From Frankia nepalensis (GTDB lineage Bacteria > Actinomycetota > Actinomycetes > Frankiales > Frankiaceae): DNA of 53,047 bases. The notes beneath the pieces were generated by a model, which had not been told where the DNA came from, searched no databases, and saw nothing but the letters and a program-made list of their open reading frames with translations. Location: NCBI RefSeq assembly GCF_016786325.1, contig NZ_JADWYU010000200.1, forward strand, positions 17,395-70,441, given 5' to 3'. A program made the translations under genes and the position numbers. Every line of letters starts with the position of its first letter. Position 1 is the stretch's first letter. Positions 41,877 through 51,387 of the stretch are shown one piece after another.

Positions 41877-43076
41877 ATGACGGGGCTTCAGGAGATCGCC
41901 GAAGGGCTGGCCGCGCGGCTGCGCCGCTCGGTCGCGATCGACGATCTCGAGACGCGGTTGCTCGCCCACACCGCGCACGAGGAGCCCGTCGACCGGTTCC
42001 GGATCGACTCGGTCATGCTGCGCCGGCCCCGCTCCGAACCATCGGTGACGAGCTACGCGCGGGCGCTCGGCATCGCGACGGCGACCGGGCCGGTGCGGGT
42101 TCCCGCCAACCCCGAGCTCGGCTCGCTCGCGCGGGTCTGCGTGCCCGTCCGCTGCCAGGGCACCCTGCTCGGCTACCTCTGGCTCTTCGACCAGCCCACC
42201 GCGCTTTCCGACCGCGAGCTGCGCCAGGCGGACGAGGCGGCGCGGGCGGCCGGCGAGGTCCTCTTCCGCGAGCGGCTGCTCGACGACCTGCGCCGCGCGG
42301 CCGAGCGCGAGCTGCTCCGCGACGTCCTCAACCCGGCGGACGAGATCCGCCGGCACGCGGTGGGCCGGCTCGTCGCCGACCACGGTGTCGCGCCCGACGC
42401 CCGGGTCCGCGCGGTCGCCGTCGTCCTCGATCCCGGCCCCGGCGCCGCCAGCGCCGTCGAGATCGACCTTGCCCTCCAGCGCGCGCGGCGGCGGCTCGCG
42501 CCGGTCCGGGCGTTCAGCATGGCCACCAGCGGCACCGGCGGGGTCCTGCTGCTCGCGCAGCCGGTCCTGCCCGAACGCGCGGCGCTGCGGGCCGAGGCGG
42601 ACGGCGTCCGGGCGGAGCTCGCCGCGAGGCTGCCCTCCTCGGCGATCTGGATCGGCCTGGGCCCGGAACGGGACAGCCTGCGCGAGAGCGTCGACACCTA
42701 CCGGGCCGCGCTGGAGGCCACCCGGGTCGCCCGTCTCGTCCCGTCGCTCGGCCCCACGGCGTTCGCGGACGAGCTCGGTGTCTACGGGCTGCTCGCCCGT
42801 CTTCCCCTGGACGCCCTCGGGCCCGACGCGATCCCCGCCGGCCTGCGACGGCTGCTCGGCGACGAGAGGTCACGTGTCCTGGTCCAGACGCTGGAGGCCT
42901 ATCTCGACGCCGGCTGCGACCCCACCGCCACCGCGGCCGCGCTCGTGATCCACCGCACGACGCTCTACTACCGCCTCGGGCGCATCGCGGAGCACACCGG
43001 CCTGGATCTCCGGGACGGCAACGATCGTCTATCCCTCCACCTGGGCCTCAAGCTGGCCCGTCTGCTGGGGCTGTGA
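41877..43076 (+). CDS. PucR/CdaR-family transcriptional regulator
   Basis: A 399-residue regulator. The N-terminal half has a GAF-like sensor region (RSVAIDDLETRLLAHTAHEE; VCVPVRCQGTLLGYLWLFDQP). A GGDEF-like middle part and a C-terminal PucR HTH (TATAAALVIHRTTLYYRLGRIAEHTGLDLRD) follow. Such proteins usually activate purine, glycolate or ureide catabolism in response to the substrate. It is divergent from the FAD oxidase-M20-hydratase operon, its most likely target. ATG start at 41877. Confidence 0.93.
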   Translation: MTGLQEIAEGLAARLRRSVAIDDLETRLLAHTAHEEPVDRFRIDSVMLRRPRSEPSVTSYARALGIATATGPVRVPANPELGSLARVCVPVRCQGTLLGYLWLFDQPTALSDRELRQADEAARAAGEVLFRERLLDDLRRAAERELLRDVLNPADEIRRHAVGRLVADHGVAPDARVRAVAVVLDPGPGAASAVEIDLALQRARRRLAPVRAFSMATSGTGGVLLLAQPVLPERAALRAEADGVRAELAARLPSSAIWIGLGPERDSLRESVDTYRAALEATRVARLVPSLGPTAFADELGVYGLLARLPLDALGPDAIPAGLRRLLGDERSRVLVQTLEAYLDAGCDPTATAAALVIHRTTLYYRLGRIAEHTGLDLRDGNDRLSLHLGLKLARLLGL

Positions 43077-43176: not shown

Positions 43177-44958
43177 TCACGGGTACCGCCCCGGCGCGCG
43201 CGGCGCGCGCCGCCGGCCGGAGTCCGGCCCTGACAGCCCCGGCTGGTAGACCGTGACCGCTCCCCCGGCCCGCTTGGCCTCGTACATGGCCAGATCAGCC
43301 TGGTGGATCACCGTCTCCGGATCGGCGGCCCCGCCGGGCTCGACGATGGCGAGGCCGACGCTGCCGCGCACGGTGTACGGCGCTCCGGCGAGCACGCACG
43401 GCGCCGCGACGGCGTCGGCGACCCGCCGGCCGAGCTGCCGCGGATCGTCGCCGCCGCCCTCGGCCAGGATCGCGAACTCGTCCCCACCGAGCCGGGCGAC
43501 CGTGTCCACCGAGCGGACCGCGGCGGCGAGCCGGGCGGCGGTCACCCGCAGCAACTCGTCGCCCGCCCCGTGCCCGAGCGCGTCATTGACGATCTTGAAA
43601 TCGTCGAGATCGCAGAAGAGCACGGCCAACGACCGCGGGTCGCCATCGCGGGCACGCCGTTCGAGGGCGGCGCGCAGCCGCTGGCCGAACAACGCCCGGT
43701 TCGCCAGCCCGGTCAGCGGGTCGTGGAACGCCTGGTACCGCAGCTGACGCTGACTCGCGCGATAACGGGCCAGCAGGTTCGCGTTCTCCAACAGCGTGCA
43801 CACCTGCCGCACCAGGGCCAGCGCCAGCAGAAAGAACAGCACAAGCATCTCGTCTCGCTGGATTTGCGCCGATTCCACCAGCCGCACGACGGCGAGCAGG
43901 CCAACCGCGCCCAGTGGCAGATACGGCAGCATCAGATGCAGTACCTGCAGCCGGCCGGGGCGCCGGCCGCCCTCCCGGTCGCTGACATCCACCTCACTGA
44001 CATCGGCGTCACGGACATCGACGTCGCCGGCATCGACCGCCAGCAGCGACGTCGGCCGCGCCGGGACGACCGTCGCCAGCCCGACCAGCAGCAACGCGGC
44101 CACGAAACCGGCCGAGATCGGCGGTGGCACCACCACCCAGCGACGCACCGCGGCCGCGGCGTAGGTGGTCGCCACCACCGCCAGCAGGACCAGCCCGGCG
44201 GCGAGCAGGCTGAACGCGAGCCAGGACCGCGGCCGGCGGAACGTACCGACCAGGAACACCGCCACGATGAGAACCAGCGCGGCCAGCGCGAGCACCCACG
44301 CCATCAGGAGGGCGACCAGGCCGTGCCCGCGGCCCACGACGACGTCCTCGACCACGAGGTCCCAGCCGAGCAGCGCCAGCGAGCCGACCAGGAGCAGGCT
44401 GTCCAGCACGGTCACCACCAGCCATCGGCGGCTGGACACCGACCGGTGACGATCACGGCCTTCGCGGCCCGCCAGACCGTCCGGCCCGTGGTCGAGCGGG
44501 TCGGTGGGCATCGTGAGCAACCCGGCCAGCGCCAGCGCGTAGCAGACCAGATAGCCGAGATCGGACAGATGCAGCCGGGGCACGTTCGTGCCGGACACGG
44601 CGGTCGACCACGCGGCAGCGGCCACCCCGACCATCGTCACGGTCGCGGCGCTCCCGGTCAGCCAGCGCCATCGGCGCTCGTCTCCCCGGCAACGCCATCC
44701 CCCGAGCCCACCGCAGACGGCCGCCACTCCCGCGGCGGTCGCCCCCGCCGCCGGTTCGACGACGATCGCGACGGACCGCCGCGCCACCAGCGCGACCAGC
44801 AGCACGGCGAGCAGGAACATGGCGGCGCCAGTCGCCAACCGCCAGAACGTCTGCCCACTCATCGCCGAGCCGCCCAGCCGGCGCGCCGGCGCGCTCGCGG
44901 GCCGGGTCAGCCGGGACTTCCGCGGCCTCGCGCTCGGGCCGGCCTCAGGATCCCGCAT
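43177..44958 (-). CDS. Membrane-bound GGDEF diguanylate cyclase
   Basis: A 593-residue protein. About ten predicted membrane helices (to about residue 380) form the sensor; a GGDEF domain follows (about 410-580). The active-site motif GGDEF is at 491-495. The inhibitory RxxD site (R482-SV-D485) lies five residues before it, so feedback by c-di-GMP is likely. No EAL domain. A DVDVRDADVSEVDVSD repeat lies in a loop. It should synthesise c-di-GMP. It ends a gene convergent with PucR and lies 246 bp from the LOV phosphatase gene; a dyad is upstream. Confidence 0.93.
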   Translation of the reverse strand: MRDPEAGPSARPRKSRLTRPASAPARRLGGSAMSGQTFWRLATGAAMFLLAVLLVALVARRSVAIVVEPAAGATAAGVAAVCGGLGGWRCRGDERRWRWLTGSAATVTMVGVAAAAWSTAVSGTNVPRLHLSDLGYLVCYALALAGLLTMPTDPLDHGPDGLAGREGRDRHRSVSSRRWLVVTVLDSLLLVGSLALLGWDLVVEDVVVGRGHGLVALLMAWVLALAALVLIVAVFLVGTFRRPRSWLAFSLLAAGLVLLAVVATTYAAAAVRRWVVVPPPISAGFVAALLLVGLATVVPARPTSLLAVDAGDVDVRDADVSEVDVSDREGGRRPGRLQVLHLMLPYLPLGAVGLLAVVRLVESAQIQRDEMLVLFFLLALALVRQVCTLLENANLLARYRASQRQLRYQAFHDPLTGLANRALFGQRLRAALERRARDGDPRSLAVLFCDLDDFKIVNDALGHGAGDELLRVTAARLAAAVRSVDTVARLGGDEFAILAEGGGDDPRQLGRRVADAVAAPCVLAGAPYTVRGSVGLAIVEPGGAADPETVIHQADLAMYEAKRAGGAVTVYQPGLSGPDSGRRRAPRAPGRYP

Positions 44959-45030
44959 CGGCCGTCACCCCCTGCCTGCCGGGCGACCTTGATTCCGGGT
45001 TCGGACACCGGACCGCATCATCGTACGACC

Positions 45031-45055
45031 ATCTAACGAAACGTACCCGTTAGAT
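45031..45055. promoter_or_regulatory. Dyad ATCTAACG-N9-CGTTAGAT upstream of the cyclase gene
   Basis: A perfect 8+8 bp inverted repeat with a 9-base spacer, 73 bp upstream of the diguanylate cyclase start, in the most AT-rich part of the 246-bp gap. It is the best-formed operator candidate of the window. Confidence 0.55.
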
Positions 45056-45204
45056 CACTTAATGTATTTGCGCTTGGTGGCCCCGGGACCGCTCGACGCG
45101 GCGTCCGGGCGGGCATCACGCGCTCGGCCGACGCCTCGACCCGGCGATCTCCCCCTCGGGCGATACCGCCAACCATCCCGCCGGACCAACCGCGTGTGGT
45201 CGGA

Positions 45205-46530
45205 TCAGGCCGCCCCTGCGAGCCGCACGAGCAGGACGGCGATGTCGTCCTGTTGGGGCTCGCCGCCCGTCGCCTGGCTGGTGAGCGTGTCGGCCAGTCC
45301 CTCCAGGCCGGAGTCGGCGACCTGGCGGGAGGCGGGAGGCGGGGTATGGCCGGCGAGCAGGGCCGCGGCCCGGTCGATGCCGTCCTCGACGTCTCGCCCG
45401 CGCTGCTCGACCAGCCCGTCGGTGTAGAGGAGCAGCGTGGAACCGGGGGGGAGCGCGACGCTCGCCTCGTCGCGCGCGCCGATGTCGCTGACGCCGAGCA
45501 GGAGCGAGTGCGCGTCCGAGAGACGGTGGACCGGGCCGCCGCCGGCGGCGCACAGCAGCGGCGGCAGATGTCCCGCGTTGGCGTAGCTGAGCGTGGCCCC
45601 GCCGGAGGTGTTCGGCTCCAGGATGGCGTAGAAGACGGTCGCGAAACTGTCCATCGCGAGGCCCTGGGCCAGCCGGTCGAGGCGCTCGAGCACCTCCCCC
45701 GGCCCGACCAGCTCCCAGGCATAGGCCCGCAGCGTGCTGCGCAGTTGCGCCATCGCGGCGGCCGCGGGCAGGTCGTGGCCCATGACGTCCCCGATCGCGA
45801 GTCCCACCCTGCCATCGGGCAGGCTCAGGACGTCGTACCAGTCGCCCCCGACGCGGGCGGTGTCACTGGCCGGGAGGTAGCGGGCCACGAAGGTCAGGCC
45901 GGGCACGGTCGGCATCTCGGGGAGCAGGCTGCGCTGCAGCATCTCGGCGACCGCGTGCGCCCGCCCGTACAGCTCCTCCCGCTCCGCCCTGGCCTCGACC
46001 CGAGCGGTCACGTCGTCCTGCACGCCGACGAAATGGGTGAGCCTGCCGGCGCCGTCGAAGACGGGCGCGATCGCGATCTCGTTCCAGAAGGTTCCGCCGT
46101 CCTTCCGGTAGTTCAGGATCTCCACCCGGGTGGGTCGACACTCGCGTTGGGCCTCGCCGAGCCGGGCGGCGGCCGCCCGGTCGCTGCGCGGTCCTTGGAG
46201 AAAGCGGCAGTTGCGTCCCACGGCCTCCGCGAAGGGGTAACCGGTGATCCGCGTGAAGGCGCCGTTGACCCAGATCAGCGGGGTGTCAGGCTGGTGCGGG
46301 TCGGCGATCGTGAAGCTCACGTCCGTGCTCTGCAACGCGCGCAGATACAGGTCGTCGGCGGGCGCCGCGCCGACCAGCCGCTCCGCCAGGCCGGGTATCG
46401 CCTGGTGTATCTCGTCCGACCCGGCTCGGCCGGATCGGCCCGGCCGGCGGGGCCGGCCGCGGCCCGGCCACCTGCGATCGCCCCGCCCCCGCTCACCACG
46501 CGTGTCAGCTCGACTCCGCCACGCATTCAC
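45205..46530 (-). CDS. LOV-domain PP2C (SpoIIE-type) phosphatase
   Basis: A 441-residue protein. An Arg/Gly-rich N-terminal 40 residues may be untranslated if a later start is used. A LOV domain (about 65-175) follows, with the photoactive motif GRNCRFLQG (Cys108) and flavin-binding NYRKDGGTFWNEIAIAPVFD. The SpoIIE/PP2C domain (about 210-440) has GGDWYDVLSLPDG, IGDVMGHD, NAGHLPPLL and TDGLVEQRG. Blue light should form a flavin-Cys adduct and alter dephosphorylation of an anti-sigma antagonist. No partner gene is adjacent. It is divergent from the NmrA-photolyase pair. Confidence 0.93.
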   Translation of the reverse strand: MNAWRSRADTRGERGRGDRRWPGRGRPRRPGRSGRAGSDEIHQAIPGLAERLVGAAPADDLYLRALQSTDVSFTIADPHQPDTPLIWVNGAFTRITGYPFAEAVGRNCRFLQGPRSDRAAAARLGEAQRECRPTRVEILNYRKDGGTFWNEIAIAPVFDGAGRLTHFVGVQDDVTARVEARAEREELYGRAHAVAEMLQRSLLPEMPTVPGLTFVARYLPASDTARVGGDWYDVLSLPDGRVGLAIGDVMGHDLPAAAAMAQLRSTLRAYAWELVGPGEVLERLDRLAQGLAMDSFATVFYAILEPNTSGGATLSYANAGHLPPLLCAAGGGPVHRLSDAHSLLLGVSDIGARDEASVALPPGSTLLLYTDGLVEQRGRDVEDGIDRAAALLAGHTPPPASRQVADSGLEGLADTLTSQATGGEPQQDDIAVLLVRLAGAA

Positions 46531-46555
46531 TCCACTACATTAGGTCCGATGTGCC

Positions 46556-46618
46556 GGAACGGCCGGTCGACCGACAACGCCGCCCGCGACGCGACGGCCG
46601 GGGGGCACCGGCCGTTCC
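46556..46618. promoter_or_regulatory. 12-bp perfect inverted repeat in the LOV/photolyase divergent region
   Basis: GGAACGGCCGGT (46556-46567) is exactly complementary in reverse to 46607-46618, with 39 bases between. It fills most of the 167-bp gap between the LOV phosphatase and NmrA-like genes and could bind one regulator or form a stem in either message. Confidence 0.5.
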
Positions 46619-46697
46619 CCTGGGCACAGGCCTCGCCGCGTCATGATCGACCCGGCTGGGAGCGGTCGAAGGAGCCCAGGATGGGAAGCCTCGCGGG

Positions 46698-48200
46698 GTG
46701 AGATGCGTGGTGATGGGCGCGACCGGCTACATCGGCAGTCGGCTCGTCCCCGAACTGCTCTCCCGGGGGCACGTCGTGCGGGCCGCCGCCCGCACCCCCG
46801 CCAAGCTGGCCGAGGCACCCTGGCGTGACCGGGCCGAACTGGTGACGGCGGACGTCACCGACTCCGGCCAGGTGGCGGCCGCCCTGGCCGGGCAGGACGT
46901 CGTCTACTACCTCGTGCACTCCCTGCACCACCACGATTTCGCCGAACGCGACCGCGTCGCCGCCCACAACGTCGCCGAGGCCGCTCGGCGGGCGGGCGTC
47001 CGGCGGATCATCTACCTGGGCGGGATCAGCCCAGCCGGGCAGCGGCTTTCCGCCCACCTCGCCTCCCGCGGCGAGGTCGGGCAGATCCTGCTCGGTTCCG
47101 GGGTGCCCACGGTCGTGCTGCGGGCCGCGGTCGTCATCGGCTCGGGGTCGGCCAGCTTCGAGATGCTGCGCTACCTCACCGAACGGCTTCCGGCCATGGT
47201 CACGCCGCGGTGGGTGGGTACCCGCGTCCAGCCGATCGCCATCCGGGACGTGCTCTACTACCTCACCCGAGCCGCCGAGCTGGTTCCGGCCGGCGTCAGC
47301 CGTGGCTTCGACATCGGGGGGCCCGACATCCTCACCTACCGGGAGATGATGCGGCGGTACGCCGCGGTCGCCGGCCTGCCACGCCGTTTCGTGGTCCCGG
47401 TGCCGCTGCTCACGCCGTGGCTGTCGGCCCAGTGGGTCAACCTCGTGACACCGGTGCCTCGCGGCATCGCCGTCCCGCTGATCTCCTCACTGGTCAACGA
47501 GGTCGTCTGCCGCGACCAGGACATCGCCGCGTACGTCCCCGACCCCGCCCGCGGCCTGACGGGCTACGACGAGGCGGTCGCCCTCGCGCTGGCCAGAACC
47601 CGTGAGGCCCGGGAGCCGTCGCGCTGGACGTGGGCCACGATGCCGCGAGGGCGCCCGCGGCCGCCGTCGGAACCGCTCCCGACGGATCCGGACTGGTCCG
47701 GCGGCACGGTCTACCAGGACGCGCGAGAACTGACCACGGCCGCGGACGCCGGGCGGCTGTGGCGGGTCATCGAGTCCGTGGGAGACGAGCACGGCGGGCG
47801 CCCCCGCGCCCGGTCCGTCCGGGGGTGGATCGACCGGCTCGTCCCGGGTGCCGCGACGCGCCGCCGGTCGGTCCCGCGCGGCCCCCGCGTCGGCGAGCCC
47901 CTCTGCGGGCGGTCCGGATGGCCCCCCGGCGGATGGCGCGTGGAGGACGTCGACCGGCCGCGCCGGCTGCGGCTGCGCGCGCGGACGCGCCTGCCGGGCC
48001 GGGCCTGGATCGAGCTTTCCGCCGCCCCCACCGCCGGGGGCTCCGTCTACCGCCAGCGGGCGATCTTCGAACCGCGCGGGCTCGCCGGCCACCTGTGCTG
48101 GAAGTCCCTCGCGCCGGTGCGCGGCGCCGCGCTGGGCCGGATGGCGCGCGACATCACGGACACCGCCGAGCACGCGCGCCCCGTGGAGCGGTCGTGGTGA
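46698..48200 (+). CDS. NmrA-like SDR / DUF2867 two-domain protein
   Basis: A 500-residue protein. The first about 290 residues form an atypical SDR with MGATGYIGSRLVPELLSRGH (NAD(P) site) and YLVHSLHHHDFAERD. The rest matches the DUF2867/SRPBCC-like type, with MPRGRPRPPSEPLPTDPDW and WRVIESVGDE. Such proteins (YbjT-like) are often next to photolyases. A GTG at 46698 precedes the next codons GTG-ATG. Its stop overlaps the photolyase start, so the two are co-translated. The substrate is unknown. Confidence 0.9.
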   Translation: MRCVVMGATGYIGSRLVPELLSRGHVVRAAARTPAKLAEAPWRDRAELVTADVTDSGQVAAALAGQDVVYYLVHSLHHHDFAERDRVAAHNVAEAARRAGVRRIIYLGGISPAGQRLSAHLASRGEVGQILLGSGVPTVVLRAAVVIGSGSASFEMLRYLTERLPAMVTPRWVGTRVQPIAIRDVLYYLTRAAELVPAGVSRGFDIGGPDILTYREMMRRYAAVAGLPRRFVVPVPLLTPWLSAQWVNLVTPVPRGIAVPLISSLVNEVVCRDQDIAAYVPDPARGLTGYDEAVALALARTREAREPSRWTWATMPRGRPRPPSEPLPTDPDWSGGTVYQDARELTTAADAGRLWRVIESVGDEHGGRPRARSVRGWIDRLVPGAATRRRSVPRGPRVGEPLCGRSGWPPGGWRVEDVDRPRRLRLRARTRLPGRAWIELSAAPTAGGSVYRQRAIFEPRGLAGHLCWKSLAPVRGAALGRMARDITDTAEHARPVERSW

Positions 48201-49516
48201 CCACGCTGGCGGTCTTCACCCGGGACCTCCGGGTGCGCGACAACCCGATGCTCGTGGCCGCCGCGCGGGAGGCCGAGCGCGTGGTGCCGGTGTTCGTGCT
48301 GGACGCGGCCATGGACCGGAGCGGATTCGCCGCCGGCGGCCGGCGGCGGTTCCTGGCCGAAAGCCTCACCGACCTCGACCGGTCGCTGCGAGAGCTCGGG
48401 GGGCGTCTCGTCCTTCGGGCCGGTGAGCCGGTCGAGCAGATCTGCCGGCTCGCCGACGAGGTCGACGCCGCCCGGGTGCACATCGCCACGGACAGCTCCG
48501 CCCACGCCCACCGGCGCGAGGCGGCGCTGCGTTCGGCGCTGTCCGAGCGCCGCCGCGAGCTGCGCGGCCACGACGAGGTGCACGCCGTCGTCGCGCCGGG
48601 CCGGCTCCGGCCCGCCGGCCGGGATCATTTCGCGGTCTTCGGCGCCTACCACCGCCGGTGGTCCGACGTCCCGTGGCGGCGCGTGCTCGGGCCCCCGGAA
48701 CGGATCCGGCTCCCGGAGCTCGACCCGGGAGCGCTGCCGCCCGTCGAGCCGCGGGCGGGCACCGACGGGTTCCCGGGCGGCGAGCGGGCGGGCCTTATGC
48801 GGGCGGAGCGCTGGCTGGGCCAGGGCGTCGAGCACTATGACGACCAACGGGACCGGCTGGCCGCGGACGGCACGTCGCGCCTGTCGCCCTACCTTCACCT
48901 GGGCTGCCTGTCCGCCCTCGAGCTCGCGACCCGGGCGGGGGCGGGCGACGGCGCCCGGGAGTTCGTCCGGCAGCTCGCCTGGCGCGACTTCTTCCACCAG
49001 CTCCTCGACGCCCGCCCGGACACGGCGCACCGGGACTACGGCCGTCAGGTGGACGACTGGCGGGACGACCCCGAGGCGCTGGAGGCCTGGCGAACCGGTC
49101 ACACCGGCGTCCCGGTCGTCGACGCCGGCATGCGGCAGCTGCTCGCCGAGGGCTGGCTGCCCAACCGGGCACGGATGATCACCGCGAGCTTCCTCACGAG
49201 GACCCTCGGCATCGACTGGCGCGCCGGCGCCGCGCACTACCTGGAACACCTGGTCGACGGGGACCTGGCCAACAACAACCTCAACTGGCAGTGGGTCGCC
49301 GGCACCGGCACCGACCGCCGGCCGGGCCGCGTCCTGAACCCGCTGCGCCAGGCCGAACGGTACGACCCCGACGGGGCCTACGTCCGCCGGCACGTGCCGG
49401 AGCTCGCCGACCTGGCGGCCAGGGACCTTCGCCAGCCGTGGCGGCTGCCGGACCCCGAGCGGCGCGCCCTGAAGTACCCCGCGCCGCTCCCGGGCCTCGC
49501 CGACACACTGCGTTGA
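48197..49516 (+). CDS. phr: DNA photolyase/cryptochrome-family protein
   Basis: A 439-residue flavoprotein of the photolyase/cryptochrome family. The alpha/beta antenna domain (about 1-130) begins TLAVFTRDLRVRDNPML. The FAD domain has TSRLSPYLHLGCLS, FVRQLAWRDFF, GVPVVDAGMRQLLAEGWLPNRARMI and GDLANNNLNWQWVAGTGTD. The position of E. coli Glu274 (ELIW) is Gln here (RQLAW), as in many actinobacterial class III-like photolyases. It should repair pyrimidine dimers with blue light. A GTG at 48197 overlaps the preceding TGA; GGAG lies eight bases before. Confidence 0.93.
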   Translation: MTTLAVFTRDLRVRDNPMLVAAAREAERVVPVFVLDAAMDRSGFAAGGRRRFLAESLTDLDRSLRELGGRLVLRAGEPVEQICRLADEVDAARVHIATDSSAHAHRREAALRSALSERRRELRGHDEVHAVVAPGRLRPAGRDHFAVFGAYHRRWSDVPWRRVLGPPERIRLPELDPGALPPVEPRAGTDGFPGGERAGLMRAERWLGQGVEHYDDQRDRLAADGTSRLSPYLHLGCLSALELATRAGAGDGAREFVRQLAWRDFFHQLLDARPDTAHRDYGRQVDDWRDDPEALEAWRTGHTGVPVVDAGMRQLLAEGWLPNRARMITASFLTRTLGIDWRAGAAHYLEHLVDGDLANNNLNWQWVAGTGTDRRPGRVLNPLRQAERYDPDGAYVRRHVPELADLAARDLRQPWRLPDPERRALKYPAPLPGLADTLR

Positions 49517-49671: not shown

Positions 49672-51387
49672 GTGACGCAGAGTAGGCGGGTGCAGCGGGC
49701 GGCGGGCGCCGCCACCTCGTTGGATTCGTGGCGGCGGGCGCGCCAGGCGCCTCGGCCGCGGCCTCTGTTGCGCCAGGGGGTGTCTTGGGTGAACGCGGCC
49801 GACCGGACGATGTTCGACGCCGTCGCGCGCGCCCGTCCCATCGCCGACCCGTTGCTGCCACGGCTGACCCACGCGGCCGACCACGGCCTGCTGTGGTGGG
49901 GGGTGGCCGGGCTCCTCGGGGTCACCCGCGGCCGGCGCCGCCGGGCGGCGGGACGCGGCCTGCTCGCGCTGGGGCTCGCGAGCGCCGTCACCAACGGCCC
50001 GGCGAAGGCGATCTTCCGGCGCGGCCGCCCCGCCACCCACGCGGTCCCGCTCGTGCGCCGCCCGCGGCGCGACCACTCCACGTTCTCGTTCCCGTCGGGG
50101 CACTCGGCCTCGGCCGCCGCCTTCGCCACCGCGGTGGCGCTCGACGCTCCGGGGGCCGCCGTGCCGGTCGGGGCGCTGGCCAGCCTGGTCGCGTTCTCCC
50201 GGGTGTACGTCGGCGTGCACTACCCGAGCGACGTCGTCGCCGGCGCCGCGCTCGGCGCGGCCTGCGCGTTCGCGACGACGAAGGTCCTGCCCAGGCGGTC
50301 CTGGGCGCCGGCGCGCGGCCGGCCGGCGCCGGCGGAGGTGTCCAGCCTGCCGGAAGGCGACGGGCTGGTCGTGGTCGTCAACGAGAGCTCCGGCGCCGGC
50401 GCCCGGTTCGGCCAGCCGTCCGGGGTCGCCGCGCCGATCCGCTCCCTGCTGCCGCTCGCCAAGGTGATCGAGGTCGGGCCGGGCGACGACCTGGAGGCGG
50501 CGCTCGACGACGCCGCCGCGTCCGCCCGGGTGCTCGGCGTCGCGGGCGGGGACGGCACCGTCAACGCGGCGGCGGAGCGCGCGCTCGCCCACGGCCTGCC
50601 GCTCGCCATCTTCCCGACCGGCACGCTCAACCACTTCGCCGCCGATCTGGGGCTCGGCGCCGGCATCGTCGGCATCGCGGACACCGTGCGCGCGCTGCGC
50701 GAGGGCAGCGCCGTCGCCGTCGACGTGGGCCGCTTCGACGGGACGCGCCCTGAGGGCACGTCCTTCGACGGCGTGTTCCTCAACACCGCGAGCGTGGGCG
50801 GCTACGCCCACCTGGTCGCGGTCAGGGAACGGCTCGAGAAGCGGCTCGGGAAATGGCCGGCGATGGTCGTGGCGCTGTCCTGGGTGCTGCGCAACGAGCC
50901 GCCGATCGACGTGACGATCATCGCCGACGAGCCGCTCGTCGGGACGCGGCCGCCCACTCCGGTCGGGCCCACCCGGCCGCGGCTCGCCCGGCCGGCGGGC
51001 GCGCGGCGGGCGGCCAGCGGAGAACGGCGCCGGCTGTGGCTGGCCTTCGTCGGCAACGGGATCTACCACCCGCCGGGCTTCGCCCCGACCTACCGGGAGC
51101 GGCTCGACGAGAGGATGCTCGACCTGCGGCTCGTCGACGGGACCGTCCCGCTCGCCAGGACGAGGCTGGTCGCCGCCGTCCTGACCGGCCGGCTGCGGCG
51201 CACCCCCGTCTACGAGCAGCGCGCGGCCACCAGGATCGAGATCACCGCCGTCGCCGCGGCCCGGGGGCGGGCTCGCGGGCGGGTCCCGTCGATGCCGTTC
51301 GCCCGGGACGGCGAGGTCACCGGGCGCGCGCGCCGCCTCATGATCACGCCGAACGGCGCCCGTCTCGTCGTCTTCCGGCCGCGCTGA
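49672..51387 (+). CDS. PAP2 phosphatase / diacylglycerol-kinase-like fusion
   Basis: A 571-residue bifunctional-looking protein. Residues about 60-210 form a PAP2 membrane phosphatase with the three motifs KAIFRRGRP, PSGHS and SRVYVGVHYPSD. Residues about 235-560 form a lipid/sphingoid kinase domain with VAGGDGTVN, FPTGTLNHFA and the late GNGIYHPPGFAPTYRERL. It may both dephosphorylate and phosphorylate lipids, for example in polyprenyl or phosphatidic acid turnover. The GTG at 49672 is used; GGGA abuts it, so a later start is possible. Confidence 0.92.
   Translation: MTQSRRVQRAAGAATSLDSWRRARQAPRPRPLLRQGVSWVNAADRTMFDAVARARPIADPLLPRLTHAADHGLLWWGVAGLLGVTRGRRRRAAGRGLLALGLASAVTNGPAKAIFRRGRPATHAVPLVRRPRRDHSTFSFPSGHSASAAAFATAVALDAPGAAVPVGALASLVAFSRVYVGVHYPSDVVAGAALGAACAFATTKVLPRRSWAPARGRPAPAEVSSLPEGDGLVVVVNESSGAGARFGQPSGVAAPIRSLLPLAKVIEVGPGDDLEAALDDAAASARVLGVAGGDGTVNAAAERALAHGLPLAIFPTGTLNHFAADLGLGAGIVGIADTVRALREGSAVAVDVGRFDGTRPEGTSFDGVFLNTASVGGYAHLVAVRERLEKRLGKWPAMVVALSWVLRNEPPIDVTIIADEPLVGTRPPTPVGPTRPRLARPAGARRAASGERRRLWLAFVGNGIYHPPGFAPTYRERLDERMLDLRLVDGTVPLARTRLVAAVLTGRLRRTPVYEQRAATRIEITAVAAARGRARGRVPSMPFARDGEVTGRARRLMITPNGARLVVFRPR

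Follow-up and report, generated by a model that had tools for sequence, protein, structure and literature searches.

A predicted blue-light phosphatase lacking the GAF domain of its relatives, encoded next to a photolyase gene pair in a single genome

A photoreceptor gene found beside genes for light-dependent DNA repair and for c-di-GMP synthesis raises the question of whether these neighbors form one unit under blue-light control, or whether the photoreceptor acts on partners encoded elsewhere. The window, meaning the whole stretch of 53,047 nucleotides analysed here (G000:C295:17395-70441), belongs to a draft genome of 10.7 Mb, assembled into 398 contigs. The original prediction for this DNA described a light-response island composed of a LOV-PP2C protein, a diguanylate cyclase, and an NmrA-photolyase pair, and all of these genes were found in place:

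41877-43076: flanking PucR-type regulator
43177-44958, minus strand: membrane GGDEF diguanylate cyclase (GGDEF E=1.4e-39, I-site RSVD)
45205-46530, minus strand: LOV-PP2C (SpoIIE-type) phosphatase, 441 aa, GTG start (PAS_9 E=2.6e-18, SpoIIE E=8.5e-45)
46698-48200, plus strand: SDR (NmrA/NAD(P)-binding) fused to DUF2867, 500 aa (Pfam match)
48197 (or 48194)-49516, plus strand: class I (CPD-type) DNA photolyase, 439 aa (FAD_binding_7 E=2.6e-65)
49672-51387: flanking PAP2-DAGK lipid enzyme

The predicted divergent arrangement holds, with 167 bp between the LOV gene and the SDR gene and a four-base overlap (GTGA) between the SDR and photolyase reading frames. The cyclase gene starts 246 bp downstream of the LOV gene stop. 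Its product has seven hydrophobic stretches resembling transmembrane segments and carries the I-site RSVD five residues before GGDEF; this combination of GGDEF signature and RxxD I-site marks it as a predicted diguanylate cyclase, as originally proposed.

Features within and just upstream of the LOV gene are as follows, from its 5' end:

46541..46569, minus strand: conserved motif CGANCGGCCG-N12-GGACCTA, then TAnnnT, with the GTG start about 10 nt downstream (pattern search)
46003..46353, minus strand: LOV domain, residues about 60-176, photoactive Cys108 in GRNCRFLQG (alignment, LOV fold)
45970..45972, minus strand: deletion scar, CTG codon of L187 (microhomology at breakpoints)
45925..46008, minus strand: predicted single signalling helix, residues 175-202, running from LOV straight to PP2C (AlphaFold model)
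45220..45936, minus strand: PP2C/SpoIIE domain with D230, D248, D371, D428, and D429 kept (Pfam, alignments)

The claim of a LOV-PP2C protein with a photoactive cysteine is confirmed by Pfam and by alignment with solved LOV domains, to which the N-terminal part matches with E-values down to 4.7e-36 and with GRNCRFLQG intact. Cys108 is invariant across 22 aligned members; one of the matching solved domains, 6y7r, has alanine at this position. From its cysteine motif and LOV fold, the protein is predicted to be a LOV photoreceptor. An exact DNA pattern of the NCRFLQG type occurs once in the genome, and a LOV-domain protein search of the same genome returned one match, the sole LOV found there. 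CarH/LitR was considered as an alternative photoreceptor and rejected, the single PF02607 match falling in a 1296-aa frame, presumably a methionine synthase from its size.

The phosphatase half is equally complete. The SpoIIE match covers positions 1-191 of the 192 in the profile, and the five aspartates, which we take to be the metal-binding ligands of PP2C, are invariant in alignments of 42 and 22 relatives. An AlphaFold model of the monomer (mean pLDDT 85.1, pTM 0.71) has as its nearest folds the RsbU domain of Rv1364c, the RssB phosphatase, and LOV domains. Fold and aspartates together place the output domain among PP2C phosphatases of the SpoIIE/RsbU type. In the model, one continuous helix spanning residues 175-202 leads from LOV into PP2C, with block means of 88 and 84 over residues 181-200, so that sensor and phosphatase are predicted to be joined by a helical linker in the manner of RsbP. 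The GTG start and first residues line up with GTG/V in four relatives.

What sets this protein apart is the region between its two domains. A GAF domain is present in 20 or more of 21 compared relatives and absent here; among 22 scanned members, the Pfam models GAF_3, GAF, and GAF_2 match 20, 19, and 18, respectively, and none of them matches the window protein. LOV and PP2C are separated by 15 residues in the window protein, compared with 212-225 in its counterparts from the genus genomes G001, G003, G004, and G006. A wider set of LOV+PP2C reading frames held 37 records, reduced to 26 distinct ones including the window by dropping eleven duplicates of the same LOV sequence. All 25 of the others have a spacing of 192-239 residues, leaving the window as the only GAF-less form. 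Since the set was collected by similarity to the short protein, any bias should run toward short forms. The family in the genus is recognized by a GAF domain between LOV and PP2C, and by its sequence the window protein falls outside that description.

The missing stretch, GAF included, amounts to 197 residues relative to G004 and G006 and to 210 relative to G001 and G003. The junction reads GAG-CTG-TAC, with CTG common to both breakpoints, on either one side or the other, in the sequences of three of these four relatives, and the reading frame stays open across it. Between the window protein and its relatives, dN/dS is 0.25-0.31, compared with 0.24-0.36 among the GAF-bearing relatives, and the branch is not long. 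By this measure selection on the short protein looks unrelaxed, although a very recent deletion could be invisible in dN/dS, and the fused helix could hold the phosphatase locked on or off. The evidence for the deletion comes from one draft genome of 398 contigs. We found no case of natural GAF loss in LOV-SpoIIE photoreceptors in the literature searched, a search that most subscription papers lay beyond. This loss, rather than an island, is the more interesting fact of the locus. In G017, a separate short LOV frame (363 aa) has LOV followed by a GAF-like stretch, judged by eye, and then runs out of frame.

Is the linkage between the LOV gene and photolyase conserved? All five Pseudofrankia genomes carrying the LOV gene also contain the SDR-photolyase pair, but only in the window does the pair lie next to that gene. 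The distance is 1.1 Mb in G001 and 3.4 Mb in G006, while in G003 and G004 the two are on different contigs. Over 17-20 kb surrounding the LOV gene, G001, G003, G004, and G006 show no SDR or photolyase match at 1e-5, and none occurs in any of 19 named LOV+PP2C loci, each covered over 4.7-17.8 kb (two of these loci, L039 and L040, coincide with those of G004 and G003). A conserved LOV-photolyase pair was therefore rejected. With the adjacency confined to this genome, a conserved light-response island is not supported, and neither is the light control of DNA repair that had been read from the adjacency; genes found side by side in one genome are a poor guide to a shared regulon. In G003, a nitroreductase-family gene (L138:11053-11706) sits immediately 5' of the LOV-GAF-PP2C gene.

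The SDR and photolyase genes belong together more broadly. They adjoin each other in the window and in five relatives from the genus. Of 97 actinobacterial genomes searched, 61 carry the two genes at the chosen thresholds, within 2 kb of each other in 15 of the 61 and within about 10.4 kb in 19, in varied orientation; this pattern of occurrence points to an old, loosely linked module. The photolyase has E. coli photolyase as its best PDB match (4.9e-63), and the FAD-binding and antenna domains detected in its sequence would make it a class I CPD photolyase, a protein that scores below the NCBIfam equivalog cut-offs for photolyase. At the site of the WREF glutamate, which we take to be catalytic (E274 of E. 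coli photolyase), the window, G001, and G003 have aspartate (WRDFF), and a WxDFF/WxEFF pattern found no match in G004 or G006. Photolyase dN/dS is 0.35-0.45 between the window and its relatives, above the 0.21-0.34 seen among the relatives. A literature search on photolyase with DUF2867 found nothing.

SDR genes have another recurrent neighbor. Of 20 regions examined around SDR, 14 (L186-L198 and L200), all from two genera of the family including Frankia, have the gene tail to tail with a SpoIIE gene; of the remaining six, three are cut short by the end of the contig, and those of G005, G009, and G064 have no SpoIIE neighbor. Two of the tail-to-tail SpoIIE genes, checked by Pfam, encode GAF-SpoIIE-HATPase_c_2 proteins without LOV. 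The pair in G001 has a GAF-EAL c-di-GMP gene (L141:12287-13534) as its divergent neighbor, and one genus genome encodes an SDR (G005:C1:66595-68100, L185) with no photolyase match at 1e-20.

The conserved motif upstream of the LOV gene lies just 5' of the GTG start in five genomes. In a search of eight genus genomes it was matched once in each of the five with a LOV gene and not at all in the three without (absence of LOV judged at E<=1e-5); a reversed control pattern had no match in any of the eight. The same eight genomes lack the motif before SDR, whose own upstream similarity to relatives extends only about 45 bp. Its sequence makes the motif region a possible promoter or operator, perhaps of a leaderless transcript for which TAnnnT could serve as the -10 element; scans for sigma-70-type promoters and for terminators found nothing. 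Because the motif occurs once per genome, solely before the LOV gene, it marks no shared regulon, and a regulon-wide promoter was rejected as its explanation.

Results for the cyclase are more mixed. It belongs to a group of seven genes with 58-70% identity from five genus genomes, two of which, the window copy and one from G001, are neighbors of the LOV gene, though oriented oppositely (two of the five genomes). In a phylogenetic tree the window cyclase groups with an unlinked gene of G006 (support 0.899), not with the LOV-linked copy of G001. More widely, 4 of the 19 named loci have a GGDEF gene no more than 1 kb from the LOV+PP2C gene, compared with 3 of 61 PP2C-only loci, a difference with a Fisher p of 0.051 that is uncorrected for related species and so does not represent independent cases. 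The four loci (L053, L056, L058, and L092), in which the gene is the immediate neighbor of a LOV-GAF-PP2C gene, are three from Pseudokineococcus and one from Kineococcus; the Pseudokineococcus neighbors are GGDEF-EAL genes, and thus not the same gene as the window cyclase. Light control of c-di-GMP, as originally proposed, keeps some weak support from the recurring GGDEF neighbor, which is seen in differing orientation and in related loci. Gene neighborhoods thus give modest support, short of proof, to a tie between phosphatases of this kind and c-di-GMP; for the LOV-PP2C protein and its own GGDEF neighbor, such a tie is possible and weakly supported.

The prediction that the anti-sigma partner would lie outside the locus agrees with the absence of STAS_2 and HATPase_c_2 matches from the window. 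The genome-wide search for anti-sigma and antagonist genes suggested at the time was run, and it found candidates elsewhere: profile matches number 31 for SpoIIE, 49 for HATPase_c_2 (32 over the cut-off; many of the 49 are probably ordinary kinases), and 12 for STAS_2 (10 over the cut-off). Contigs C365, C326, C99, and C336 each have a STAS_2 and a HATPase_c_2 match no more than about 1 kb apart. The pair on C365 precedes a frame starting like a membrane pyrophosphatase, an arrangement shared with bldG of Streptomyces. Among so many SpoIIE genes (31 matches), no STAS protein can be singled out as cognate to the LOV-PP2C protein. To read that protein as a LOV phosphatase working by partner switching is sound.

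The best explanation, to which we assign a probability of roughly 0.6, is a light-only, RsbP-like phosphatase whose GAF domain was deleted in frame in this lineage and which acts on unlinked STAS and anti-sigma partners. Blue light would form a Cys108-flavin adduct, and the resulting change would travel down the fused helix to shift the geometry and activity of the PP2C dimer, by analogy with phosphatases of the RsbU/RsbP type. Passages of PMC12143880 describe coiled-coil linkers that dimerise PP2C domains and transmit the signal in RsbU; the same is predicted there for RsbP and Rv1364c. The phosphatase would then dephosphorylate a STAS anti-anti-sigma protein encoded elsewhere, which in turn would free a sigma factor or other partner of an RsbW-type kinase. 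On this view, SDR and photolyase would form an independent module, widespread in actinobacteria, that ended up next to the LOV gene.

Other readings fit parts of these data. Joint control of the divergent SDR-photolyase pair and the neighboring cyclase by the LOV-PP2C protein under blue light would suit divergent promoters within 167 bp, a photolyase that itself requires light, the GGDEF genes adjoining LOV genes in G001 and in four named loci, and the c-di-GMP gene divergent from the pair in G001. We nevertheless regard it as improbable, in view of the adjacency to photolyase in one of five genus genomes and none of the named loci, the short upstream similarity of SDR and the missing LOV motif there, the grouping of the window cyclase with an unlinked gene, and the GGDEF neighbors of PP2C genes without LOV. 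Slightly better placed, though still unlikely, is a decaying gene, in which the deletion broke signalling and the GAF-less form is drifting. Its restriction to one genome and the three genus genomes without a LOV gene would agree with decay; the open frame, the intact phosphatase aspartates and LOV cysteine, dN/dS and branch length similar to those of relatives, the intact upstream motif, and the confident model all argue against it.

The SiaABC pathway comprises a PP2C phosphatase, a STAS protein, and a diguanylate cyclase, and we hold it about as doubtful as decay that the phosphatase feeds some other STAS/kinase switch of this sort, controlling a cyclase rather than a sigma factor. GGDEF neighbors in some loci and a weak match to the SiaA model (2.2e-6) speak for such a switch, whereas the window cyclase has no STAS-binding part recognized by Pfam and the window has no STAS_2 match. 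A more speculative proposal, deserving as little credence as joint blue-light control, is that domain excision turned a two-input phosphatase (light plus a GAF ligand) into a light-only one by splicing two signalling helices, after which the lineage brought the gene into a back-to-back position beside photolyase, with the result that the CGANCGGCCG-N12-GGACCTA region may now also serve the repair operon.

The light-only, RsbP-like phosphatase that we favor has several relatives among known systems. LOV-SpoIIE photoreceptors are an already known class, listed as a typical bacterial effector type in passages of a 2014 review (PMC4844311). Among the closest are the LOV-GAF-SpoIIE proteins of Pseudofrankia, Pseudokineococcus, Kineococcus, Quadrisphaera, and relatives, which share the GRNCRFLQG LOV domain (with small variants), the PP2C domain, and, within the genus, the upstream motif, and which differ in retaining the GAF domain deleted here. 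Bacillus subtilis RsbP (PAS-coiled coil-PP2C) likewise connects a PAS-type sensor to PP2C through one helix, according to passages of PMC12143880 and PMC3183031, but its PAS domain depends on RsbQ, where the window protein has LOV with a photoactive cysteine. Mycobacterium tuberculosis Rv1364c (PAS-PP2C-RsbW-STAS), the closest solved PP2C relative by sequence (8.8e-24) and by fold, carries a fused kinase and STAS domain, whereas the window protein stops after PP2C. YtvA (LOV-STAS) also brings blue light into sigma-B partner switching, and its NCBIfam model matches the LOV part of the window protein at 4.1e-38, below the family cut-off; its output is a STAS domain, unlike the phosphatase here. 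If the short protein is light-switched, it would offer a naturally occurring equivalent to engineered LOV fusions, and the pair of proteins from one genus, with and without GAF, would be a test of how sensors control PP2C domains through a helical linker.
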